The notes under the pieces were generated by a model. It did no database searches, was not told the DNA's origin, and worked only from the letters and a program-made list of their open reading frames with translations. Of a stretch of 64,000 nucleotides of DNA, positions 15,784 through 32,089 are shown piece by piece; positions within the stretch are counted from its first letter, which is position 1; every line of letters starts with the position of its first letter. This DNA is from Microbacterium sp. LWO12-1.2 (GTDB taxonomy: Bacteria > Actinomycetota > Actinomycetes > Actinomycetales > Microbacteriaceae). Where the stretch lies: contig NZ_JBEGII010000001.1 of NCBI RefSeq assembly GCF_040675875.1, positions 3,100,001 through 3,164,000 of the forward strand, given 5' to 3'. The position numbers were made by a program, and so were the translations under genes.

Positions 15784-16586
15784 GCGATCTTCTTTCCCGT
15801 GTTTCGGATGACGGTGGAGAGCGGGAAGAACGCCTCTTCCGCGCGGGGCGCCTGATCCGCTTCCGCACCGGGGTAGCGGGTGGCGAGCAGGCCTCGGCAG
15901 AAGTGCGCATTGCCTTCGATCGAGATGCGGGTCGCCCGCGCCCGGCGCAGCGCCAATGCAGCGGCTGCCGAGGTGACGGGGACGCCGCGCTCGTCGACCA
16001 GCACCAGCGCAGACCCTTCTATCCCCAACCCGATGGCGGATCGTCGCCGGATCAGAGCGGCCTTCGCGTCGTCATCGGGGAGGTCCCCGAGAGTGATCGC
16101 CGCGATCTCCTCCTCCGCTGCATCCGGAAGGCCACGGAGCAGGGCGGTCAGTGCCCGTTCCATCGCGGCGACATGCGCCTTGCGCTGAAAAGTGCGACGC
16201 AGGTCATCGAGGTCGCTCTCCGCCTCGTGCAGGAAAGTGCCCCGGTATCCGGCATCCGCCGCCAGGCCCACGTTGATGATGTCGGAGTCGTGATGATCAT
16301 CGAGCTCGACGACGACGACACCCGACTCAGGAAGCGCCGTCACCGCGTCCTTGGCATCTGAGGCCATGAGATACGCGAAGTTCGGGGCGCAGAACGAGGT
16401 GGGCAGGCGCAGATGCACCTCGATCCCCTCATCTGTGAACTGCACGGACCGGACGAATCCGAGATCGGTGATCGGCTCGTCGAGCTCGGGGTCGATCACC
16501 GCGTCGAGGGCACGCAGCACGTCGCTCTCCGTGAGCGCGAGCAGCTGCGGCCGCTCGATGACCGTGTGAGCGGTTGCGGACGTCAT
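15780..16586 (-). CDS. MIP18/DUF59 (PaaD-like) metal-sulfur assembly family protein
   Basis: The 268-aa protein starts with a MIP18-type domain (DVLRALDAVIDPELDEPITDLGFVRSV, then LRLPTSFCAPNFAYLMASDA with the conserved Cys), followed by a helical C-terminal part without clear family. MIP18 proteins help to insert Fe-S clusters or metals. Homologues of this fused length sit in propane monooxygenase operons between the amidohydrolase and the alcohol dehydrogenase, exactly as here. The coupling is by ATGA overlaps on both sides. The client protein is not obvious because no monooxygenase is present. Confidence 0.82.
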   Translation of the reverse strand: MTSATAHTVIERPQLLALTESDVLRALDAVIDPELDEPITDLGFVRSVQFTDEGIEVHLRLPTSFCAPNFAYLMASDAKDAVTALPESGVVVVELDDHHDSDIINVGLAADAGYRGTFLHEAESDLDDLRRTFQRKAHVAAMERALTALLRGLPDAAEEEIAAITLGDLPDDDAKAALIRRRSAIGLGIEGSALVLVDERGVPVTSAAAALALRRARATRISIEGNAHFCRGLLATRYPGAEADQAPRAEEAFFPLSTVIRNTGKKIA

Positions 16587-21437: not shown

Positions 21438-22355
21438 ATGTCGGTTGGTCTGCTCGCCGTCGTCGACGACATCCTGAGCGCGGCGATGAAGGCTTCGGCC
21501 AAGGCCGCAGGCGTCGTGATCGATGACGCCGCCGTCACGCCGCAGTACGTGCAGGGCATCACTCCCGCACGCGAACTGCCCGTGGTCGCGAAGATCGCGG
21601 TCGGATCACTGGCGAACAAGTTCGTCATCATCATCCCGATCGCCCTGCTCCTCACCGCCTTCGCGCCGTGGGTGCTGCCATACCTGCTGATCCTGGGCGG
21701 TGCGTACCTCTGCTTCGAAGGCGCCGAGAAGGTGCTCGAATGGTTCGGCGTGCAGCACGGCCACGCAGAAGAAGGCGACCGCAACGAGAACAAGCTGGTG
21801 TGGGGCGCGGTGCGCACCGACCTGATCCTCTCGACCGAGATCATGCTCATCTCGCTCGCGAACCTCGAGGCCGGCCTCGACATCTGGACGACCCTCGCAA
21901 TCCTGGCCGTCATCGCGCTCATCATGACCGGTGTCGTCTACGGCGCCGTCGCGCTGCTGGTGAAGATCGACGACATCGGCCTCAAGATGGCCAAGAACCC
22001 GGTGCAGCGCGTGCGACACACCGGCACCCGGATCGTGCGCTCGATGCCTGCAGTCTTCCGCTTCATCAGCGTCCTCGGCACCGTCGCCATGCTCTGGGTC
22101 GGCGGCCACCTGCTGCTCGTGAACCTCGGCGAGGTCGGCCTGCACTTCGGTGCCGATGTGCTGCACGGCATCGAGCACCTGCTCGAGCCGCTCGGACCGG
22201 TGATCGTCTGGATCGGCGACACCCTGTTCTCGGCCGTCGCCGGACTCGTGGCCGGGATGATCATCGTCGGCATCGTGCTGGGCGTCGCGCGGATGCTGGG
22301 CAAGAAGCCGAACTTCCACGAGGGCGAGGAGTCCCCCGCCGACGTGCACGTCTGA
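21438..22355 (+). CDS. DUF808 (YedI-like) inner membrane protein
   Basis: The 305-aa protein begins SVGLLAVVDDILSAAMKASAKAAGVVIDDAAVTPQYV, the hallmark opening of the DUF808 family, and has five to six hydrophobic helices plus the conserved charged loop KLVWGAVRTDLILSTEIMLISL. The function of the family is unknown. GGGGGA precedes the ATG. It is a stand-alone gene here. Confidence 0.9.
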   Translation: MSVGLLAVVDDILSAAMKASAKAAGVVIDDAAVTPQYVQGITPARELPVVAKIAVGSLANKFVIIIPIALLLTAFAPWVLPYLLILGGAYLCFEGAEKVLEWFGVQHGHAEEGDRNENKLVWGAVRTDLILSTEIMLISLANLEAGLDIWTTLAILAVIALIMTGVVYGAVALLVKIDDIGLKMAKNPVQRVRHTGTRIVRSMPAVFRFISVLGTVAMLWVGGHLLLVNLGEVGLHFGADVLHGIEHLLEPLGPVIVWIGDTLFSAVAGLVAGMIIVGIVLGVARMLGKKPNFHEGEESPADVHV

Positions 22356-22375
22356 GCGGACACGTCACCGGGGCG

Positions 22376-23074
22376 TCAGAGCCGTCGGCGCACGACGATC
22401 TTCTTCTCGTCGCCCGGGTTCATCCGGTCGTACCAGACATCGACCCGCTCGCCCTCGACGATCGGCGCGGTCACATCGATGACCGCCGGGCGCTGCACGA
22501 ACCGCTGCGTCCCCTGCGCATCGACGAACGCGTAGGTCACCGCCGTCAGGATCCTGCTCGAGTCGCCGAAGTGTGTGTACCCCTGGTTCGTCACGACGCC
22601 CTCGACAGGGTCGGACTCACGCATGAGCCTCTCCTCGGTGTCGAGCCGTACTGTGCGGCGACGCAGCGCGGCGACGGCGGCCACGGCGAACACGACACCG
22701 ATGCCGATCAGCACGCTGGCCAGCACGACCCTCATGCTCACCGACAGGACGGCGATCCCCGCGCCGCCGAACCCGAGAGCCAACGGCGCCGCCCATCCCG
22801 GAAGTCGGCGGTTCTTGATCGAGAGCCGCAGCCAGAGGAAGAACCCTCCGAGGGTCGCGAGGGCACCGAGCGTGGTGCCGCCGGCGCCCAGAAGCAGCCG
22901 GACCGTGCTCTGGGCGACATCGCCGTCCCCCGGCTCCCCTGCCATCGACATGAGCGATCCGACCAGGATCGCGGGGCCGACGAAGGCGAGTATGCCGGGC
23001 AGGATGAGGTCCTTCCCGGCAGGAACTCGGGCGGCGCGTGCGCGGCGGGCGGCATCGGGATCGACGGTGCTCAT
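22376..23074 (-). CDS. Membrane protein with DUF3592-like C-terminal domain
   Basis: The 232-aa product has four hydrophobic helices in residues 25-140 followed by a soluble domain with GVVTNQGYTHFGDSSRI, VTYAFVDAQG and VDVWYDRMNPGDEKKIV, resembling the small beta domain of DUF3592-type membrane proteins. The ATG at 23074 is the only start that leaves the upstream region free. No functional clue comes from its neighbours, DUF808 (convergent) and an SDR (same strand). Confidence 0.7.
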   Translation of the reverse strand: MSTVDPDAARRARAARVPAGKDLILPGILAFVGPAILVGSLMSMAGEPGDGDVAQSTVRLLLGAGGTTLGALATLGGFFLWLRLSIKNRRLPGWAAPLALGFGGAGIAVLSVSMRVVLASVLIGIGVVFAVAAVAALRRRTVRLDTEERLMRESDPVEGVVTNQGYTHFGDSSRILTAVTYAFVDAQGTQRFVQRPAVIDVTAPIVEGERVDVWYDRMNPGDEKKIVVRRRL

Positions 23075-23126
23075 GCGTCCATCAGAGCACACCGAGCCCC
23101 GCGCGCTCCAGAGCCCGTGCGCCTTC

Positions 23127-23882
23127 TCACACCCGGACGTGGTCTGCGCTGCGCAGCCATTCGTCGAAGGTGATCTTGCCCCGGAGCGCATCCGCCCCTC
23201 CGCGCAGCGAGCCTGACGCGAGCCCCCGGCCGTAGGCACCGGGGAGCCGGATGTCGAGCACCCGGCGGTGGATGCCGTCGAACGCGAGCTGCCGTCGAGC
23301 CACGTCAGCGAGTGTCTCATCGCGCGGTCCGACCAGGTCGGGCGCCCGACCGACCGCTCCGGTCTCAGCGACCCGCACGAGGTGCGCGGCGACTTCGCGG
23401 GCCGCGACCGGCCGCATGAGCGTGCGGGGCATCGGCGCGAACGGTCCGCTCACCAGGCCGAGGATCTGCCCCGCGAACTCGTGGAACTGGCCCGCCCGGG
23501 CGATCGTGAACGGCACGGGTCCTGCGGCGACGGCCCGCTCCTGGGCGAGCTTTCCCGCGTAGTACGAGGTGTCGATGTCGTCGATCCCGACGATCGACAG
23601 CACGACGTGATGACCGACGCCGGCCTGCCGCTCGGCTGCGAGCAGGTGGTGCGCCGCGGTCTCGAAGAAGCGCCTCGACTTCTTCGCCGAGAGCGTGGTG
23701 GCGAGGTTGGTGACGTCGATGACGGCATCCGCTCCGGCGAGCGCAGCGGCGAGCCCCCTGCCCGTGAGGACATCTGCGCCGTTCGCCCTGCTGAGCACGA
23801 CGACCTCGTGACCGGCTGCGCGCGCGGACTCCGTGACGTGGCGCCCGACGGTTCCGGTTCCTCCTGCGATGGCGATCCTCAT
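23127..23882 (-). CDS. NmrA/epimerase-like atypical SDR
   Basis: The 251-aa protein has the atypical SDR glycine motif AGGTGTVGRHV at its N-terminus and a VLSIVGIDDIDTSYYAGKLAQE segment with Tyr and Lys in the active-site position. It is divergent from an ECF41-type sigma factor. ECF41 sigma factors typically neighbour carboxymuconolactone decarboxylase, oxidoreductase or epimerase genes and control them, so this gene is the expected target. A match to the ECF41 promoter lies upstream at 23932-23958. Confidence 0.85.
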   Translation of the reverse strand: MRIAIAGGTGTVGRHVTESARAAGHEVVVLSRANGADVLTGRGLAAALAGADAVIDVTNLATTLSAKKSRRFFETAAHHLLAAERQAGVGHHVVLSIVGIDDIDTSYYAGKLAQERAVAAGPVPFTIARAGQFHEFAGQILGLVSGPFAPMPRTLMRPVAAREVAAHLVRVAETGAVGRAPDLVGPRDETLADVARRQLAFDGIHRRVLDIRLPGAYGRGLASGSLRGGADALRGKITFDEWLRSADHVRV

Positions 23883-23931
23883 GGGGTTCCCTTCGTTCGG
23901 GGTGCTCTGCGCGTCACCCTGTCACATCTCC

Positions 23932-23958
23932 GACGATGGAACGCGGGCAGGTGTGAGG
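23932..23958 (-). promoter_or_regulatory. Candidate ECF41 (SigJ) promoter of the SDR gene
   Basis: On the minus strand CCTCACA (23958-23952) is followed after exactly 16 bases by CGTC (23935-23932), close to the known ECF41 consensus TGTCACA-N16-CGTC (5 of 7 and 4 of 4). The -10 box lies about 50 bases from the SDR start. The only exact TGTCACA nearby, at 23920 on the plus strand, has no CGTC at the right distance. Confidence 0.5.
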
Positions 23959-23996
23959 TCGGTAGTCTTCGAGTGCATCCGCTGCGAGGAGAGAAC

Positions 23997-24944
23997 GTGC
24001 ACGACGACCTGGATGAGGTGTTCCGCGAACGCCGTCGGCTGCTGGCCGTCGCCTACCGCATGACGGGAACCCTCGCCGATGCGGAGGACGTCGTGCAGGA
24101 GACGTTCGTGCGCTGGTACCGGCAGACGGATGCCGAACGCGACGCCATCCTGAACCTCGGCGCCTGGCTGACGACCGTCGCCAGCCGGATCTCGCTCGAT
24201 CTGCTGACCTCGGCCCGGCGACGCCGTGAGCAGTACGTGGGTCAGTGGCTGCCTGAGCCGGTGCCCTCCGACGCGTTCGCGGACAGCGGCCGGGTGTCCG
24301 CGTCATCGCGCGAGATCACCGACCCCTTGGAGCGCGTGTCGTTCGACGATTCGGTGTCGACGGCTCTGCTGGTCGTGCTGGAGTCGATGACCCCGTCGGA
24401 GCGCGTGGCCTTCGTACTGCACGACATCTTCGACGTACCGTTCCCCGAGATCGCCGACATCCTCGGGCGCTCCCCTGCCGCCGTACGCCAACTGGCGACC
24501 TCGGCGCGACGCCACGTACGCGAGAACCGCGCGACGGCAGTACCTCGGGCGGAGCATGACCGGGTGGTGCGTGCGTTCCGCGCCGCGACGCTCACAGGAG
24601 GTGTCGACGAGTTGATCCGGGTGCTCGCACCGGATGTCGAGCTGCGCAGCGACGGCGGCGGAGTCGTGCGCGCCGCACTCAACATCGTCAGCGGCGCCGA
24701 TCGGGTCGCCCGTTTCCTGCTCGGGATCGCTCAGAAGAACCCTCAGCTCGAGGCCGCCGAGCTGGAGACCGGAGACGGCCTCGCCTTCGTGTTCCGCGCG
24801 GCGGGCGAAGTCGCATCCGTCATGAACTTCGCAGTCGAGAACCGCCGCATCAGCCGGGTGTGGATCATGATGAATCCGGCGAAGCTGACCTCGTGGCGTG
24901 GCGGTTCGGGCGCGGACGGGATTTCATCGTCGCTGCGACCATGA
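23997..24944 (+). CDS. sigJ: ECF41-group RNA polymerase sigma factor
   Basis: The 315-aa protein has sigma-70 region 2 (AYRMTGTLADAEDVVQETFVRWYR), region 4 (MTPSERVAFVLHDIFDVPFPEIADILGRSPAAVRQLATSARRHV) and a C-terminal SnoaL-like domain of about 110 residues that modulates activity in ECF41 members in place of an anti-sigma factor. GTG at 23997 is chosen because GAGGAG lies seven bases before it. It is divergent from the NmrA-like SDR. The linker between regions 2 and 4 carries the WLPEPVP motif of SigJ-type proteins. Confidence 0.9.
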   Translation: MHDDLDEVFRERRRLLAVAYRMTGTLADAEDVVQETFVRWYRQTDAERDAILNLGAWLTTVASRISLDLLTSARRRREQYVGQWLPEPVPSDAFADSGRVSASSREITDPLERVSFDDSVSTALLVVLESMTPSERVAFVLHDIFDVPFPEIADILGRSPAAVRQLATSARRHVRENRATAVPRAEHDRVVRAFRAATLTGGVDELIRVLAPDVELRSDGGGVVRAALNIVSGADRVARFLLGIAQKNPQLEAAELETGDGLAFVFRAAGEVASVMNFAVENRRISRVWIMMNPAKLTSWRGGSGADGISSSLRP

Positions 24945-25017
24945 GATCGACCGCAGCGAGCACCTGTTGCCTGCAGGTGACAGGCGATCAACAACTAGCC
25001 CATCGGCCACCCATACG

Positions 25018-25046
25018 TTGGCTTCGCATCACTCCCCAGTTATAGG
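25018..25046 (+). promoter_or_regulatory. Candidate promoter of the N-hydroxylase/ATP-grasp operon
   Basis: TTGGCT (25018-25023) and TATAGG (25041-25046) are separated by 17 bases, a good fit to a housekeeping promoter, in the AT-rich gap left of the island. It would leave a leader of about 95 bases before the ATG at 25145. I see no iron-box-like palindrome nearby. The 200-base gap after sigJ otherwise holds only an imperfect hairpin near 24966. Confidence 0.4.
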
Positions 25047-25144
25047 TGTTCTACCGGAGTTCGCCTTCTGCGCGCCAGAAATTGACTTACGCTCCTTGTG
25101 ATCGCGCCCAGACTGGCGAGATCCAGTGGGATATTGGGGGAAGA

Positions 25145-26416
25145 ATGGATCGCTTCGACGTTGCCGGAATCGGCTTCGGTCCGTCAAACATCTCGGTCGC
25201 CGTGGCTCTTGCCGAATTGCATCCGGAATTGTCGTGCCGCTTCATCGACAGGAAGCTTGATTTCTCGTGGCATGAGGACTTGATGTTCCCTGAGGCCGAG
25301 ATGCAAGTGCCTTTTCTGAAGGACATTGTGTCGCTGAGGAACCCTCAAAGCGAGTTCTCATTTCTTGCATACCTAAAAGACCGGGGCAGATTGCATGAGT
25401 TCATCAACCTTCGCACATTCTATCCATCCAGAAGAGAGTTCGATGACTACTACAGATGGGTCGCTGGACGGTTTGACGCAAGCACGCAGTGGGGCCGAAA
25501 CGTCACGAGCGTTGAAGCTGATGGCGAGTATCTCGTTGTTTCTTCGGTAGATGTGTCAGGGAACGATCTTCAACGTATCCAAACAAGGGCCCTGGTCATC
25601 GCAAACGGTGGGACTCCAAAGATTCCCGCGGACACTGTAGTTGGATCGCGCCTTTTCCATGCCTCTGAATCGCTGGGTCGACTGCGAGCAGGATACCCGG
25701 ATCGGACCGCGCCCTACCGCTTCAACATTGTCGGCTCTGGTCAGACAACTGCAGATCTGTTCACCTACCTCCGCGTTGAGTATCCCAACGCGAGCATCAC
25801 CATCACCTCTCGATCCTTCGCGATGCGACCTGAGGACGACACCCACTTTGTCAACGAACTCTTCTTCCCGGAAACGACTGACTGGTTCTACGGCGCCAAT
25901 TCGTCTGTACGCGAGCGCGTTCTGCGCGAACACTCGTCGGCCGCCCATTCCGGCGCGAGCTATGACCTGATCCCGCGAATCTACCGCGCTCGGTACGAAG
26001 CACGAGTGGCTGGCTCGAACAACTACCAGTTCGAGCGTCTCGTCGAATTCATCGGCGGGTCCTCTTCCGGGAATGTTGCCCGAGGACGCTACCGATCTCT
26101 CGAAGATGGCACAGAGCGCGAAGAATCCTACGACGCCATCATCCTCGGCACTGGATACACCTACCCAATGCCCTTGCCTCTCCTTGAAGGCGTCTCCGGA
26201 ATGTTCGATCTTGGTCCGAACGGTTGCTATCAAATCGATCGTGACTACAGTATCCGCACGCAGAAGATTTCGGCTCCTCAGATCTACCTTCAAGGCTATG
26301 CGGAGGCGACCCACGGATTCAGCGAGGTTCTGCTCTCGTTGATGCCTATTCGGGCTGCAGAGATTGCCGAGAATGCGGCGCGCGCTTCGATCGAACCTGC
26401 GTGCACGCAGATATGA
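25145..26416 (+). CDS. SidA/PvdA/IucD-family amino acid N-hydroxylase, atypical substrate site
   Basis: The 423-aa FAD- and NADPH-dependent monooxygenase adds a hydroxyl to a side-chain amine. FAD motif GIGFGPSN (8-15), FSWHEDLMFPEAEMQVPFLKDIVSLRNP (Lys59 equals the substrate-binding Lys of SidA), NADPH motif GSGQTTAD (197-204), FVNELFFP (Asn237) and LGTGY (334-338) are present. The T-N-Y motif that carries the second substrate-contacting Asn in ornithine/lysine hydroxylases is replaced by A-A-H (266-268), so the natural substrate may differ. GGGGG lies upstream of the ATG. It is the first gene of a six-gene coupled operon and has lower GC than flanking genes. Without acyltransferase or NIS synthetase nearby, a standard hydroxamate siderophore is unlikely. 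Confidence 0.9.
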   Translation: MDRFDVAGIGFGPSNISVAVALAELHPELSCRFIDRKLDFSWHEDLMFPEAEMQVPFLKDIVSLRNPQSEFSFLAYLKDRGRLHEFINLRTFYPSRREFDDYYRWVAGRFDASTQWGRNVTSVEADGEYLVVSSVDVSGNDLQRIQTRALVIANGGTPKIPADTVVGSRLFHASESLGRLRAGYPDRTAPYRFNIVGSGQTTADLFTYLRVEYPNASITITSRSFAMRPEDDTHFVNELFFPETTDWFYGANSSVRERVLREHSSAAHSGASYDLIPRIYRARYEARVAGSNNYQFERLVEFIGGSSSGNVARGRYRSLEDGTEREESYDAIILGTGYTYPMPLPLLEGVSGMFDLGPNGCYQIDRDYSIRTQKISAPQIYLQGYAEATHGFSEVLLSLMPIRAAEIAENAARASIEPACTQI

Positions 26417-27777
26417 CCACTTCAGGCATGACGCCCGCTTGCGTGACTGAGGCGACGACGCCATCTCCGACGGAGGCCATCTTGCGGGATGCAACGCAGC
26501 GCGCGGATGAACTTGGCTCTAGCGTCATCTTTCGACTGCTTCCTCCCCCGAACTCTGACCGCACCGAGGTGACCGTCACAACCGGTGCACGGACTTCACG
26601 ACTTACGGTCGCCAACGACGCAGCGAGCATCACCGGCGCTGTTGAGCAACTCTGTGTCGATGCATGGCTCGATATGGCATCCATAGAGCCTGGCGTGATC
26701 GTGAGTCGATACCCGCGGGGCGCCGATTCGCTCATGATCGTGAGAGTTGACGGGTCGGCGGAAGCCCGAGTTGTCAAGGTGGGGCCCGTCGAAATCGTGC
26801 GGGCCGAGGTCGACTTAGTTCGGGCGGTCAATGACCATCACTGCGCTGAGAGGATCGTCTTCCCTCGCGTTCTCGCCTTTGTTGAGCATGCGGGGATCGG
26901 AGTCAACGTGATGGAAGCAGCGCGCGCCGAGCCCCTCGATGAAGATCTGTTCTGCGACGGGGACCGAACTACTCCGGTTCACAATGCCATTTCCCGACTC
27001 GAACCGTTCTTGGAGCTCCTCGGGAATCTCCATCGGAGGACGGTGGCGCCCGGGGTCCCCGAGGTGGCCGCCTATCTGTACAGGGGCAGATTCTCCGCTG
27101 TACCACACGAGCCCGGTTTCATTCAGGCAGCAGAGCGTGTGCTTGGAGACAGGAACGGCGAGGCACTGGGGCTTCTTCCGTGGATTAGCGCTGAGTATGC
27201 CGTCGAAGGGCTCGCGTCTCTCCGTACACGCCTTGCTCGACATATCCCGGAGCTGTTGCCGGAATCAAGTTCCGTGGTGCACGGAGACCCCCACCTGCGC
27301 AACATGCTGAGGCGGGTAGACGGCACTCCCTGCTTCATCGACCCGCGGACGGTCTGGGACGGTCGACGGCGAAGAGATGAAGGCCGCGGAGATCCGACCT
27401 ACGACTTCGCTACCTTGCTCCACAGCATTTGGCCAATGAGCTCAGTACTGCACTCAGTGGAGAGCGGACGACGCGGACCGGTTTGGGATGTGACTGCAAA
27501 TGCGGACGCCGTCCACTTCTCCAGTCTCCTGCCACAGACTGCCCTGATCAACGCGATCGAGGCGTGCTTCGTCGACCAGCTTGATTGGTTTGACGATGCA
27601 TCACGGAGCGTAAGAGTGGCGCGATTGCGGATCGGGGCGGCAGCCGCGCTTGCGGGCTGGTTGAAGTACCCCGCGGCACTGCCGACTGTCGAATCATGGT
27701 CGGCGACCTATTTCGCGATGTTGTGGTACCTCCAGCGTGGGATCGAGGAGATGGAGCAGCATGACGAAGAGGAATGA
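26413..27777 (+). CDS. APH/choline kinase-fold phosphotransferase family protein
   Basis: The C-terminal half of the 454-aa protein has the Brenner motif HGDPHLRN (290-297) and a metal-binding Asp in FIDPR (Asp310), as in aminoglycoside phosphotransferases and related small-molecule kinases; ARVVKVG near residue 122 may be the ATP Lys region. The N-terminal 90 residues are not recognised. The start overlaps the hydroxylase stop as ATGA; a GTG 12 bases upstream is possible. Inside a biosynthetic operon the protein could phosphorylate an intermediate to activate it, or modify the product for self-protection. There is no ground to call it an aminoglycoside resistance gene. Confidence 0.8.
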   Translation: MTTSGMTPACVTEATTPSPTEAILRDATQRADELGSSVIFRLLPPPNSDRTEVTVTTGARTSRLTVANDAASITGAVEQLCVDAWLDMASIEPGVIVSRYPRGADSLMIVRVDGSAEARVVKVGPVEIVRAEVDLVRAVNDHHCAERIVFPRVLAFVEHAGIGVNVMEAARAEPLDEDLFCDGDRTTPVHNAISRLEPFLELLGNLHRRTVAPGVPEVAAYLYRGRFSAVPHEPGFIQAAERVLGDRNGEALGLLPWISAEYAVEGLASLRTRLARHIPELLPESSSVVHGDPHLRNMLRRVDGTPCFIDPRTVWDGRRRRDEGRGDPTYDFATLLHSIWPMSSVLHSVESGRRGPVWDVTANADAVHFSSLLPQTALINAIEACFVDQLDWFDDASRSVRVARLRIGAAAALAGWLKYPAALPTVESWSATYFAMLWYLQRGIEEMEQHDEEE

Positions 27778-29050
27778 CATTCCGCAGGGAATCGAAGCGA
27801 TGCATCAGGATCGCGCTGGCGTCGTGGTTCTGGTCAACACGGGAAAGTCAGAGGCGCTGGAACGCTTGCAGCGAGTCGCCGCGAACGCAACCGTGCATGT
27901 CGTCACTGAGGCAGCGTACGTGTCGAAATATCCCAGAGGAACACCGATGACCATAGTGAAGGACGTCGGGCGCGTAAGCGACGTGCTTGATGCAGTGGCT
28001 GCTGTGCATCGCGGTAGCACTGTTACACACGTCGTTTCCCCGTCAGAGCGCAGTATGCCTGCCGGCGGGTACGTACGAGACGTGTTCGCGCTCGGCGGCA
28101 TCGGTTCCACCACTGCAAACCTCTTGACCAACAAGTTCGCGATGAAGCAGCGCCTCGTCGAGCATGGTCTTCCCGTCGCCGAGCACCGGGTGACTGTGGG
28201 GCGCGAGCAATTGTCGGCCGCCGCGCGAATGATCGGCTTCCCCGTGATCATCAAGCCTGCGTTCGGAACGGGCTCAATGGACACTCATGTCCTCGCCGAC
28301 GAAGACACACTCGCGCGACTACTGGCGTCCGAGTCGGGCGACCGGATCTCCGACTCAACCCGGCTGATGATCGTCGAGCGATACATGACCGTCGGCGATG
28401 AGTTGACCTGCGATGGGATCGTGGTGCGTGGGAAGGTCGAATTTGCTCTTGCGTCGCTCTACAACACTCCTCTCCTCGGCGGGATCGGCCAGATGCTCGG
28501 CGCCTCCACTCTCCGCGGCGCCGATGCGCTCGCGCAAGAAGTTCGTGAGCTCCATGCTCGCACCGTCTCTGCGCTCGGCATCGAGGAAGGTGTGACCCAC
28601 ATGGAAATGCTACGTACCTCCGACGGATTGCTTGTTGGTGAGATCGCGTGTCGACCAGGCGGCGCTGGCGTCGTCGATAGCGCTCGTCTGTCGACCGGCG
28701 TCGACCTCTGGGATGCATTCATGTCGTTGTCGCTCGGGCATGCCCCGGAGATCGCGAACGACGGGTCGGATCCCGCACCGTTGATGTGGACTACTCTGCC
28801 CACCTGGCCCGGCAGGGTAGTTTCGCTCGCAGACGAGAATGCCTTTCGCTCGGTCGACGGGATGCAATTCGTTGACATGCACATAAGGGTGGGCGATGAA
28901 ATCAGCTCACGAATGCACAGCTCGACGACAACAGGAATCGTCTACTGCAGACTTGACGCGCCCGACCGAAGACAGGTCGCGGATCGTCTCCGCCAGATCG
29001 AGAACGCCTATTTCCTCGATACGCGCCCACCCGCAGAGGAGCAACGATGA
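27761..29050 (+). CDS. ATP-grasp ligase 1 (amino acid/peptide ligase type)
   Basis: The 429-aa protein has an ATP-grasp domain: NKFAMKQRLVEHGLPVAEH, the ATP Lys in FPVIIKPAFGTGSMDTH (Lys165), IVERYM (Glu206), and the metal/substrate region HMEML (Glu282), VGEIACRPGGAG (Glu294, Arg298). This HxE...GE...RPGG pattern is that of carboxylate-amine ligases that form peptide bonds via acyl phosphates. The ATG at 27761, with GGAG upstream, overlaps the previous gene by 17 bases; a GTG start at 27737 is an alternative. The N-terminal 90 residues contain VSKYPRG, echoing VSRYPRG in the kinase-like neighbour. Substrates are unknown. Confidence 0.85.
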   Translation: MTKRNDIPQGIEAMHQDRAGVVVLVNTGKSEALERLQRVAANATVHVVTEAAYVSKYPRGTPMTIVKDVGRVSDVLDAVAAVHRGSTVTHVVSPSERSMPAGGYVRDVFALGGIGSTTANLLTNKFAMKQRLVEHGLPVAEHRVTVGREQLSAAARMIGFPVIIKPAFGTGSMDTHVLADEDTLARLLASESGDRISDSTRLMIVERYMTVGDELTCDGIVVRGKVEFALASLYNTPLLGGIGQMLGASTLRGADALAQEVRELHARTVSALGIEEGVTHMEMLRTSDGLLVGEIACRPGGAGVVDSARLSTGVDLWDAFMSLSLGHAPEIANDGSDPAPLMWTTLPTWPGRVVSLADENAFRSVDGMQFVDMHIRVGDEISSRMHSSTTTGIVYCRLDAPDRRQVADRLRQIENAYFLDTRPPAEEQR

Positions 29051-29574
29051 CGCAGGACAGTTCGGGCCGGCTGATAGGTCGGCGAATGCCGACGACGGCG
29101 CTGACAACCACCGACGGAGATCGGGTGGACCTATCAGATCCGGCGCTCGGTGCGTTCGCGCTGTTCATCTATCCACGCACCGGAGACCCCAACAAGCCTG
29201 ATGACGCCTCGTGGGCTGCTATCCCCGGGGCAAAGGGGTGCACCGTTGAAGCCTGCGCTATCCGTGATCTCTACAGCGCATTTCGCGAACTCGGGCTCGG
29301 CGTCTACGGTCTCTCAACCCAAAGCACCGAGTATCAGTCTGAGGCGGTCGAACGGCTCCATCTCCCGTACCCGATACTGTCGGACCCGAGCTTGGCACTT
29401 CGACGGCTCGGCCTCGACACGTTTCGATTCGATGGTGAGGAGCTGTATACGCGGGTCACTCTGTTAGTCGCAGGTGGATCTGTCGTAGATGTCGTGTGGC
29501 CGACCAGCAACACCATCGCGCACGTATCGGACGTTCTTGCCTCTGCCCGTTCGGCCTACGGAAGTGCAGGTTGA
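29047..29574 (+). CDS. Peroxiredoxin (AhpC/TSA, BCP-like) in biosynthetic operon
   Basis: The 175-aa thioredoxin-fold protein has FIYPRTGDPN, then a WAAIPGAKGCTVEACAIRD segment with the peroxidatic Cys in GCT and a second Cys five residues later, as in PrxQ/BCP proteins, and ends with a TRVTLLVAGGSVVDVVWP strand. It would reduce peroxides or another oxidised small molecule in the cytoplasm. Coupling to both ligases (ATGA and TTGA overlaps) makes a pathway role likely: a redox step on the N-oxygenated intermediate, or disposal of peroxide leaked by the flavin monooxygenase. Which one is inference. Confidence 0.82.
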   Translation: MTQDSSGRLIGRRMPTTALTTTDGDRVDLSDPALGAFALFIYPRTGDPNKPDDASWAAIPGAKGCTVEACAIRDLYSAFRELGLGVYGLSTQSTEYQSEAVERLHLPYPILSDPSLALRRLGLDTFRFDGEELYTRVTLLVAGGSVVDVVWPTSNTIAHVSDVLASARSAYGSAG

Positions 29575-30710
29575 GTCGAGTTCTTGTCATCGAGGGAACA
29601 CCTGCGCTTGTGCTCGCAGCACGTCGCGCTGGGCACGATGTCGTTGTGATCGGGAGTGGCACCGGTCACGACGTGGATGTCCCTGACCGGCGACTGATCG
29701 TTCAGACCGCAATCGGCTTGCACGAGCGATTGCCGTTCGACGCCGCAATCAGCCTCACAGAGCAGGGACTGCTTCCTGCCGCGGAGGTGGCCGAGTCCCT
29801 CGGGTTGTGGGGCGCTGGCCTAAAAACCGCGCAGCTGCTGATGGACAAGGTGCTCATGCGAAGACACCTCGCCCGCTTCTCCGGCATGGAGGTGCGCTTC
29901 TGGGAAGCGCGCTGCCAGGCTGACGTTGCTACCGCTCTGGCGGAGAACGGCGCACCGGTCGTTGTCAAGCCTTCGCAAGGCACTGCAAGCACCGGGGTCT
30001 CGGTCGTCCGGGAATCGAGTGAGGCGGAGCGAGCCTGGCGCAGGGCGGCTGGGGCGGCAACCGGCAGCGTACTCATCGAGGAGTTCCTCGATGGACCTGA
30101 GTTCAGTGTTGAGGCATTCTCGGTGTCCGGCGAACATCGGATTGTTGCGCTCACGGAGAAGACCGTCGACCCCGCAAGCTCGGTTGAAATGGGGCATACC
30201 ATTCCCGCCCGCGTCTCGCCTGCCGACTCAGCCGCGCTCGCTGAGCATGCCCGTGGAGTTCTGGACGCCCTCGGCCTGAGGGATGGACCATCACACACTG
30301 AATTGCGCCTCACGAGCAGGGGGCCCAGGCTGATCGAATCGCACAATCGGGTAGGCGGTGACAAGATCCGCGAGCTAGTACATCACGCGACCGGAGTCGA
30401 CTACCTCGACCTCATCATTCGCGCCGCAACGGGTGCCCCCGTCCTGCCAACCGAGCTCATCTATCGCGGCGGCGCGGCGATTCGGTTCCTTGTCGCACCA
30501 CCCGGCGCCGTGCTCCACGTGTCTGTCCCGAATTGGATCGAACCCGAGACTCAGGTGCACATCGGCGTGCAGTCAGGGAATGTCGTAGGCGCGCTCAGAT
30601 CCTCGCACGACAGAGTTGGACATGTCATAAGCAGCGGCAGAGACGCGAGCAGTGCAAGTAGCCGCGCAGAGAAGGTGGTTGCTGCAGTCTTGATCAGGAC
30701 ACAAGCGTGA
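29571..30710 (+). CDS. ATP-grasp ligase 2 (BacD-like L-amino acid ligase)
   Basis: The 379-aa protein has MDKVLMRRHLARFSG, ATP Lys in APVVVKPSQGTASTGVSVV (Lys133), LIEEFLDGPEFSVEAF, and HTELRLTSRGPRLIESHNRVGGDKI (Glu244, Glu256, Asn259, Arg260), the signature of BacD/RizA-type L-amino acid ligases that make alpha-dipeptides. The start is TTG at 29571, overlapping the peroxiredoxin stop as TTGA; no ATG or GTG fits as well, and the Rossmann-like strand VLVIEGTPALVLAARRAG begins three codons later. Two different ligases in one operon suggest a product with two amide bonds, or one ligase acting on a non-peptide amine. Confidence 0.86.
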   Translation: MSRVLVIEGTPALVLAARRAGHDVVVIGSGTGHDVDVPDRRLIVQTAIGLHERLPFDAAISLTEQGLLPAAEVAESLGLWGAGLKTAQLLMDKVLMRRHLARFSGMEVRFWEARCQADVATALAENGAPVVVKPSQGTASTGVSVVRESSEAERAWRRAAGAATGSVLIEEFLDGPEFSVEAFSVSGEHRIVALTEKTVDPASSVEMGHTIPARVSPADSAALAEHARGVLDALGLRDGPSHTELRLTSRGPRLIESHNRVGGDKIRELVHHATGVDYLDLIIRAATGAPVLPTELIYRGGAAIRFLVAPPGAVLHVSVPNWIEPETQVHIGVQSGNVVGALRSSHDRVGHVISSGRDASSASSRAEKVVAAVLIRTQA

Positions 30711-31951
30711 ATCCAGACGGACGCAGAGCGTGGTCGCCCGTATTTCAGCGCTTTGCATGGAGCCAGGCTTCCTCCCAGTTCGCGGCGCAGACTGCATCTG
30801 CAGCGATCCCACTCCTTGCCTTGACAACCTTGCACGTCCAGGACACTCAGGTCGGCCTGATCTCGTTCGCGCAGTTCTTGCCGGTGATCCTCCTGACGCT
30901 ACTCCTTGGTGCCATCATCGACTCGACATCGAAGGTCACCCCGATGCTCATCGGGCACGCTGGGCGCGCCCTCGTGTTCGCGCTGCTTGCGGTTCTCGCT
31001 TCGACCGGCAGGTTGCAACTGTCCACCCTACTTGTCGCCGTGTTTCTTGCCGGAGCACTAACCGCAGCATTCGATGTCGCCGTCCAAGGAGTCGTTCCCT
31101 ATCTCGCGCCCTCGGCGAAGTTGGTGGAGGCTAATCGGCGCATCCAACTGACTTACTCGCTGGCGCAGGTGCTCGGACCGACAGCTGCCGGCGCCTTGGT
31201 CGGCCTGGGGTATCCGGCGCTTGCGTTTGCTGCGATCAGCATCGTGTATGCGGGCGCGTTCTTCCTCCTCCTACCCGTGCGAGCAACGCCCACGAAGCCG
31301 GAATCGCCCCTCAACGCCTCCGTGTTTCGGCGACTCAATGCTGGGCTGCGATTCAGTTTCTCCGATCGGGTACTCAGACGTCTTCTGATCGCGGGGAGCA
31401 TCTTCAACCTGACCGAACAGGCACTCATCACAACATTTCTGGTTCGGGCAAGTCGCGATCTTGGGATCTCTGCCGGGCTACTCGGCGTGATCCTCTCGGC
31501 TGGAGGGCTCGGAGCAGTCGCCGCCGCGGCAGCGATGCGTCACGCGAAACCCCGATCTCCGGCTGTTCTGATGGTCGTCGCAATGAGCGGGGCCACTCTG
31601 TCGCCTATTCTGCTACTTTTCGTCAGCGACGCCGGCGTGTTCGATCAGGTACTGGCAATCATGGTGTTCTTCCTCTATGGGTCGGGACTTGTGATCTACA
31701 ACGTGCTGGCGGTCACCCTGCGGCAGCAGAGAGCTCCTCTGGTGATGAGAAGCCGAATAGGTGCGGTCTATCGCTTCTTCGCGTACGGTTCTCTGGGGTT
31801 CGGAGGGCTGGTCTCCTCAGCGCTCATCGCAGTCGCAGGTGCCGCGTTAGCGTTGGTGTTGATTGTCGCAGGCATGGCCGTTGCTACGGTCGTGTATGCC
31901 AGCTCGTTGTTGCGGGTCCGACACGAGATCGACGATGGGCTCGTGGCGTAG
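30707..31951 (+). CDS. MFS exporter of the island operon
   Basis: The 414-aa membrane protein has about 12 hydrophobic helices and MFS traits: a RFAWSQASSQFAAQTASAAIPLLAL first helix, the loop LGAIIDSTSKVTPMLIGHAGRAL in the motif A position, and EANRRIQLTYSLAQVLGPTAAGALV near helix 5. It resembles drug or siderophore exporters of the enterobactin-exporter/macrolide-efflux type. GTG at 30707 overlaps the ligase stop as GTGA. As last gene it most likely exports the product and may give self-resistance. No uptake receptor or binding protein accompanies it. Confidence 0.87.
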   Translation: MNPDGRRAWSPVFQRFAWSQASSQFAAQTASAAIPLLALTTLHVQDTQVGLISFAQFLPVILLTLLLGAIIDSTSKVTPMLIGHAGRALVFALLAVLASTGRLQLSTLLVAVFLAGALTAAFDVAVQGVVPYLAPSAKLVEANRRIQLTYSLAQVLGPTAAGALVGLGYPALAFAAISIVYAGAFFLLLPVRATPTKPESPLNASVFRRLNAGLRFSFSDRVLRRLLIAGSIFNLTEQALITTFLVRASRDLGISAGLLGVILSAGGLGAVAAAAAMRHAKPRSPAVLMVVAMSGATLSPILLLFVSDAGVFDQVLAIMVFFLYGSGLVIYNVLAVTLRQQRAPLVMRSRIGAVYRFFAYGSLGFGGLVSSALIAVAGAALALVLIVAGMAVATVVYASSLLRVRHEIDDGLVA

Positions 31952-32089
31952 TTGAAGTGTCCAGTACGCGGGCGTGCGAATCACTTAAGGCATCCTGATC
32001 TCCTGACCTCCTGTCCCCGTGATCCGTCACCCTTCGCATCCTGCTAACGTCAGCGTTGCGCGCCCGAAGCGCAGACGCAGGAGACCCCA

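Follow-up and report, generated by a model that had tools for sequence, protein, structure and literature searches.

What is made by an operon that sets an N-hydroxylase beside a kinase, a peroxiredoxin, two ATP-grasp ligases and an exporter? Such an operon occupies positions 25145..31951 of a 64,000-nucleotide stretch of Microbacterium sp. LWO12-1.2 (contig NZ_JBEGII010000001.1, positions 3,100,001 to 3,164,000 of the forward strand), and this whole stretch is referred to below as the window. Comparison with related loci indicates that the product is probably a small amino acid or peptide with an oxidised nitrogen, which is exported, and that the chemistry by which it arises may be undescribed. 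Direct reading of the window yields six intact open reading frames (ORFs) on the plus strand, free of internal stops, with successive overlaps of 4 (A/B), 17 (B/C), 4 (C/D), 4 (D/E) and 4 (E/F) bases, as the initial annotation of this DNA had described:

25145..26416, + strand: gene A, SidA/IucD/PvdA-type flavin N-hydroxylase (PF13434), substrate site altered (AAH for TNY)
26413..27777, + strand: gene B, APH-fold kinase (PF01636) of a rare family, this copy without a peroxiredoxin domain
27761..29050, + strand: gene C, ATP-grasp ligase, a relative of the L-amino acid ligase 4wd3 (PDB and Pfam matches)
29047..29574, + strand: gene D, PrxQ-like peroxiredoxin (PF08534), GCTVEAC, both cysteines present
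29571..30710, + strand: gene E, second ATP-grasp ligase, of the BL00235/BacD type of L-amino acid ligase (Pfam and PDB matches)
30707..31951, + strand: gene F, MFS exporter (MFS_3)

The protein families named in that annotation were upheld by Pfam and PDB matches. Protein A carries the Lys_Orn_oxgnase domain of the SidA/IucD/PvdA family (PF13434, E = 3.3e-91), and among solved structures it is nearest to hydroxylases of ornithine and lysine, L-ornithine 5-monooxygenase coming first (PDB code 3s5w, E = 1.1e-83). APH (PF01636, E = 2.4e-11) is the sole family match of B, the start of which is uncertain; we adopted the ATG at 26413, which lies in an ATGA overlap, and the database copy P0001 begins 23 codons downstream. 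The two ATP-grasp ligases and the exporter were likewise found as predicted. Ligase C matches the L-amino acid ligase 4wd3 across 398 residues (E = 3.8e-47) and the Pfam ATP-grasp family (E = 4e-9), and ligase E matches ATP-grasp_4 (E = 2.6e-21), BL00235 (PDB code 3vot, E = 6.7e-24) and BacD (E = 2.9e-16). The C-terminal L-amino acid ligase domain LAL_C2 accompanies the ATP-grasp fold in E (E = 4.3e-12, 46.6 bits) and, at the borderline, in C (29.5 bits against a cut-off of 29.4). Protein F belongs to MFS_3 (E = 1.7e-26) and scores 53.9 bits with the EntS model, under its cut-off of 324. In peroxiredoxins of the PrxQ type the peroxidatic cysteine lies in a GCT motif and the resolving cysteine five residues further on; D, identified by Redoxin (PF08534, E = 5.7e-13) and PDB entry 5enu (E = 8.8e-10), has exactly this arrangement in its GCTVEAC segment. 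A scan of the operon for promoters and terminators returned 0 and 3 sites, respectively, no more than in shuffled sequences.

Constant core and variable ligases

Relatives of the operon were gathered mainly through its kinase. Used as a protein query it returned 7 proteins and as a profile 22, both searches scoring only the 8000 candidates with the most words in common; across 84,980 species genomes, 157 candidate stretches yielded 12 confirmed loci. Two loci each from Agrobacterium and Vibrio were found among plasmid records, and 392 screened Streptomyces genomes contributed five loci, three of them already known. In total, 20 loci were examined, seven of which are hydrazine loci, described below, and 13 of which encode an N-oxygenase: the window, L004, L006, L005, L007, L008, L009, L010, L012, L018, L019, L063 and a Roseibium locus composed of two contigs (L017 and L060), the linkage of which we infer. 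Locus L063 entered the count through its SidA protein, and the other 12 through the kinase bait or as the window itself. Rows treated as duplicates of L009 (G342, L022, L042), L011 (L043, L047) and L015 (L044, L048) were dropped, and the P-numbered kinases P0002-P0027 do not enter the locus count, several of them belonging to genomes already represented in it. Genes in unannotated loci were called by a composition-based script, so that starts and small genes are approximate.

All 13 loci share an N-oxygenase (SidA-type in 11, HrmI-like in two), a peroxiredoxin, a kinase and an MFS protein, and the kinase directly follows the N-oxygenase in the 12 loci that have both on one contig. The loci lie in actinobacteria, on plasmids of Agrobacterium and of Vibrio, and in two further proteobacteria, which agrees with the expectation that the set would be conserved in scattered bacteria. 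On the two Agrobacterium plasmids the order is SidA, kinase, ATP-grasp, peroxiredoxin, dipeptide epimerase and MFS protein, i.e. that of the window with E exchanged for the epimerase; this recurrence of the order A-B-C-D-x-F argues that the gene set did not come together by chance. The Vibrio plasmids encode an MFS protein, a Haem_oxygenas_2 protein, the kinase and an ATP-grasp protein. HrmI is the nearest relative of their oxygenase (E = 1.4e-35); an iron enzyme unrelated to SidA stands in SidA's place. HrmI is the hormaomycin N-oxygenase that converts lysine into a nitro amino acid; unlike in hormaomycin, no NRPS (non-ribosomal peptide synthetase) gene is annotated within ~9 kb of the kinase in Vibrio. 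About 4 kb upstream of that kinase, on the opposite strand, lies a TauD/TfdA dioxygenase gene.

The ligases are the variable part. An ATP-grasp gene lies directly 3' of the kinase in 11 of the 13 loci, and seven of these genes (those of the window, L008, L009, L010, L012, L019 and L063) belong to the C type. The number of ATP-grasp genes is one in Agrobacterium and Vibrio, two in the window, L019 and L063, and three in L008, L009, L010 and L012; counting all 13 loci it ranges from none to three, and we therefore rejected the six genes as the unit, the form in which the operon had initially been annotated. The ATP-grasps had also been placed at the centre, with the kinase and peroxiredoxin as accessories. 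This picture has to be turned around, since it is the ligases that vary whereas the kinase and peroxiredoxin are constant and form one fused protein in 9/13 loci. The proteins that never change between loci are taken to define the core chemistry, which would consist of oxygenation of a nitrogen, ATP-dependent kinase action on the N-O product with the peroxiredoxin alongside, and export. Pairwise identities of A, B and C correlate at 0.98-0.99 (21 pairs from 7 loci) and, without Agrobacterium, at 0.97-0.99 (15 pairs), the pairs in both sets not being independent; the genes are thus co-inherited.

Pathways of the bacilysin and rhizocticin type, which do not depend on NRPS, combine ATP-grasp L-amino acid ligases with an MFS protein. 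The window resembles them in exactly these components, with E close to BL00235 and BacD and C close to 4wd3. It differs in that its six genes include no anticapsin or phosphonate genes, and in that N-oxygenase, kinase and peroxiredoxin are here the fixed elements around which the ligases change. We class the cluster with the ATP-grasp peptide pathways, and its core chemistry may well be new. In the open-access papers searched we found no described cluster and no kinase with this gene set, as had been supposed from the outset.

The kinase, its peroxiredoxin partner and the hydrazine loci

In APH-fold kinases the HxDxxxxN motif forms the catalytic loop and a further Asp binds metal. Both elements are intact in B (HGDPHLRN and FIDPR), and Lys122, Glu132, Asp292, Asn297 and Asp310 are invariant in nine aligned kinases. 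No PDB relative of B was found, either by sequence or with the kinase profile, and none of the NCBIfam families matched at E 0.01, so that no curated antibiotic-resistance APH model recognizes it. The kinase tree omits P0001, P0009 and P0013, which duplicate the window, L008 and L019, respectively, as well as P0017 and P0020, the chimeric or decayed pieces P0026 and P0027, and L007, which is 99.6% identical to L005. One of these pieces, P0027 of Streptomyces sp. NBC_01435, appears to be a decayed copy in which the tail of the SidA gene has run into the head of the peroxiredoxin-kinase gene.

In nine of the 13 loci the kinase carries an N-terminal domain with the GCT motif (L005, L007, L008, L009, L010, L012, L018, L019 and L063; L007 was assigned through its identity to L005), and in the remaining four the peroxiredoxin is a separate gene. 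The two arrangements complement each other: every kinase that lacks the motif is accompanied by a separate peroxiredoxin gene (4/4; the window, L004, L006 and Roseibium, where this gene overlaps SidA), and in the nine fused loci tblastn found no separate peroxiredoxin, bar one weak match in L019. The latter, 48 residues at 15891-16034 resembling the Agrobacterium peroxiredoxin (E = 0.002), lies outside the kinase and was taken for chance. An hhalign comparison relates the fused domain to the separate peroxiredoxins with a probability of 96.8 (E = 2.7e-10). Searched against the PDB, its profile gave AhpC and other peroxiredoxins as top, albeit weak, matches (best E = 0.002), and 7/9 members matched AhpC-TSA at E values up to 1 (best 6.7e-6). 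Of the two cysteines, the actinobacterial fusions listed retain the first and have lost the second.

The peroxiredoxin might be a housekeeping enzyme that clears hydrogen peroxide leaked by the oxygenase and has no part in the kinase reaction, a proposal that leaves the rest of the pathway proposed below intact. We consider this quite possible, if short of an even chance. The protein does track the oxygenase, being present in all 13 loci with a SidA- or HrmI-like enzyme and in none of the seven hydrazine loci, and passages of a SidA study report strongly uncoupled variants (PMC7347517). On the other hand, the partner to which it is fused is the kinase and not the oxygenase, and the loss of the second cysteine in the actinobacterial fusions listed also counts against it.

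The fold of B raises a further alternative, since many antibiotic producers carry APH-type resistance kinases: the enzyme might confer self-resistance, inactivating the product inside the producer without contributing a biosynthetic step. This appears unlikely. The gene directly follows the N-oxygenase in the 12 single-contig loci, it is joined to a peroxiredoxin in nine of 13, no NCBIfam model matched it, and relatives of it occur in seven hydrazine loci with a different gene set. A free-standing resistance gene is disfavoured because the identities of A, B and C run parallel and because no solitary, resistance-like kinase was seen among the 20 loci examined.

The seven hydrazine loci (L011, L013, L014, L015, L016, L049 and L050) are all actinobacterial, and their kinases form a second clade (support 100/99). 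Neighbouring genes encode a methyltransferase, an adenylosuccinate-lyase-like protein, a GNAT protein, a C26 peptidase, an amidase and a glutamine-synthetase-like protein, together with a 566-residue protein without a Pfam match that is a candidate counterpart of FzmP. According to passages of a study of fosfazinomycin and kinamycin, these two pathways have five hydrazine gene classes in common (PMC6133997). As far as those passages define them, the classes (glutamine synthetase, amidase, hypothetical protein, GNAT and adenylosuccinate lyase) are present in 7/7 related-kinase loci and the set is missing from the window, where none of nine hydrazine-set queries matched within positions 15001-45000. 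An HPPD-like protein is encoded in L015, L049 and L050, and an ATP-grasp gene in two of the seven loci (L016 and L049). Within the stretches examined, SidA- and HrmI-like queries, the only ones applied, matched in none of the seven; the loci may hold an N-oxygenase of another kind, such as the FzmM/CreE type. Nor did tblastn or the GCT motif reveal a peroxiredoxin in these stretches (0/7), and longer reading frames of the L015 and L016 kinases likewise lack GCT.

As the related kinases accompany the hydrazine set in 7/7 loci, this one kinase family follows N-O or N-N chemistry, with a peroxiredoxin present in the former setting and none in the latter. It is possible, though doubtful, that the whole family is dedicated to nitrogen-heteroatom groups, phosphorylating N-OH in the N-oxygenase loci and a hydrazine nitrogen in the hydrazine loci; the ATP-grasp enzymes would then enclose in short peptides the resulting amino acids, which would contain N-O-P, N-N-P or a bond formed when the phosphate departs. 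To our knowledge, kinases that act on N-O or N-N groups are hardly known. Because the family occurs in two contexts, two classes of substrate are at hand with which to ask directly what it phosphorylates.

The same contexts suggest a variant in which the N-O phosphate is a leaving group, to be displaced by an internal or external amine or by the peroxiredoxin thiol. An N-N or N-S bond would result, as in a cyclic hydrazine amino acid, and neither KtzT nor cupin-MetRS nor nitrite would be needed. We rate this as improbable. Its basis is the presence of an N-oxygenase and a kinase in one operon, the related kinases in hydrazine clusters, and a reactive thiol protein with the N-oxygenase form in 13/13 loci. 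However, the hydrazine loci hold all five classes of gene that make up the described route to hydrazine, and the kinase is therefore not needed there for N-N formation. A 2024 review of N-N-forming enzymes also offers no precedent, as the terms kinase, phosphoryl, leaving group, ATP-grasp and peroxiredoxin are absent from it. The Pfam scan of the six operon proteins showed no PF04299 domain (KtzT/PipS of piperazate biosynthesis).

The N-hydroxylase substrate site and the proposed pathway

Protein A shares the fold of the SidA and PvdA ornithine/lysine N-hydroxylases and keeps the positions of Lys107 (FLKD), Asn293 (FVNE) and Ser469 (LLS). It departs from them at Asn323, the Asn of the TNYS loop (SidA numbering checked), where it has Ala, as does PDB entry 5cku. 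Passages of the SidA study describe Asn323 as touching both the substrate and the NADPH ribose, and the N323A variant as binding ornithine less well (PMC7347517). All 11 kinase-linked SidA proteins have Ala, Thr or Val in place of this Asn, and His in place of the Tyr that follows it. The initial annotation was right about the SidA family, but the substrate site departs from that of ordinary ornithine and lysine enzymes. We aligned 129 SidA rows, comprising 120 listed of 158 homologues and nine operon copies, with repeated proteins included (among them P0028, P0047, P0048, P0053 and P0068). Among these matches, Ala or Thr followed by His occurs in 65 rows, Asn in 61, another residue in two and a gap in one; all nine operon copies lack Asn323, as do L060 (Thr) and L063 (Val). 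Judged by these alignments, the operon N-hydroxylases are a distinct SidA subfamily, and the change in the loop points to a different substrate and not to the kinase step itself.

Two other SidA proteins retain the canonical TNY loop. One is a second SidA gene of Actinoplanes flavus (L008, 18683-20014), beside genes that by eye are carrier-protein-like and MbtH-like, a region that is perhaps a siderophore cluster. The other, P0129, is a 663-residue fusion of a SidA domain with PF04299, the domain of the piperazate synthase KtzT.

The SidA-type enzyme, together with the weak EntS similarity of the exporter, could also point to a hydroxamate siderophore pathway. For the present operon this is very improbable, and we rejected it: IucA/IucC, the NIS (NRPS-independent siderophore) synthetase, and the NRPS condensation domain are both absent from the whole host genome, the same searches being positive in 2/14 and 4/14 control genomes, respectively. 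That NRPS and NIS synthetase are missing had been predicted for the operon. Pfam detected no acyltransferase among the six proteins, and the SidA substrate site is altered.

We favour, on balance, a pathway that consists of operon-borne N-oxygenation, kinase action on N-O, wrapping by ligases and export. First, the modified SidA-type enzyme would hydroxylate the nitrogen of an amino acid other than ordinary ornithine or lysine, or of one of these held differently. The kinase, alongside the peroxiredoxin, would then phosphorylate the new N-O group or activate it with ATP, leading to an N-O-phosphate amino acid or something derived from it. One or more ATP-grasp ligases may build this residue into a di- or tripeptide, a wrapping that would vary between loci, and the MFS protein would export the product, as with peptide-masked antimetabolites such as bacilysin. 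Phosphorylation of N-O is the role of the kinase that we hold most likely, although we propose it tentatively. In guanitoxin biosynthesis an oxygenase produces an N-OH that a kinase probably phosphorylates; the likeness to the present operon lies in this logic, by description and not by sequence. If the proposal is correct, the operon links nitrogen oxygenation with a kinase step in a cassette compact enough for a laboratory host to express in full. Small polar peptides of such a kind easily escape the usual screens.

Several observations weigh against this pathway. The window kinase is only 23-38% identical to the 12 other kinases aligned. The ATP-grasps that follow the kinase in Agrobacterium and Vibrio are only 17-21% identical to C and not clearly orthologous to it, and a tree flagged for long branches places them outside the C clade; a single orthologue of C throughout was rejected for these two groups. 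No ATP-grasp gene was found within 10 kb in Spongiihabitans (L018) or on the two Roseibium contigs, and a linked ligase is therefore not obligatory. The Spongiihabitans genome encodes one LAL_C2 protein, on a different contig, and we accordingly rejected the notion that it has no ligase at all. Finally, two Stappiaceae SidA genes beside NRPS genes (L057 and L058) also lack Asn323, with no kinase in the stretch examined, and a third SidA gene beside NRPS genes (L059) retains Asn. Loss of Asn323 is therefore no marker of kinase chemistry by itself, and the idea that it is unique to kinase operons was rejected.

Insertion in the host genome

The operon is a horizontally acquired insertion of low GC content, 0.555-0.641 across its length compared with 0.66-0.72 outside. 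It lies within a stretch that varies among relatives:

22356..32039, no strand: variable stretch containing the operon, with a GC dip over the operon

Relatives were chosen through a flanking GNAT gene, which is present in 13 of 59 genomes of the genus (E 1e-60, host included). The operon is absent from all six whose surroundings were compared; both flanks were matched in five and only the right flank in L039, and in L037 the bases corresponding to window positions 22355 and 32040 stand 22 bases apart. Kinase B is correspondingly rare, occurring in one of 149 genomes of the genus, the host itself, and in two of 394 of the class, the host and one Streptomyces. An NmrA-like short-chain dehydrogenase/reductase gene and an ECF sigma-factor-like ORF, both named by eye, adjoin the operon at window positions 23127-24944. 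Their GC content is normal, and this part, variable among the genus relatives, is probably unrelated to the operon.

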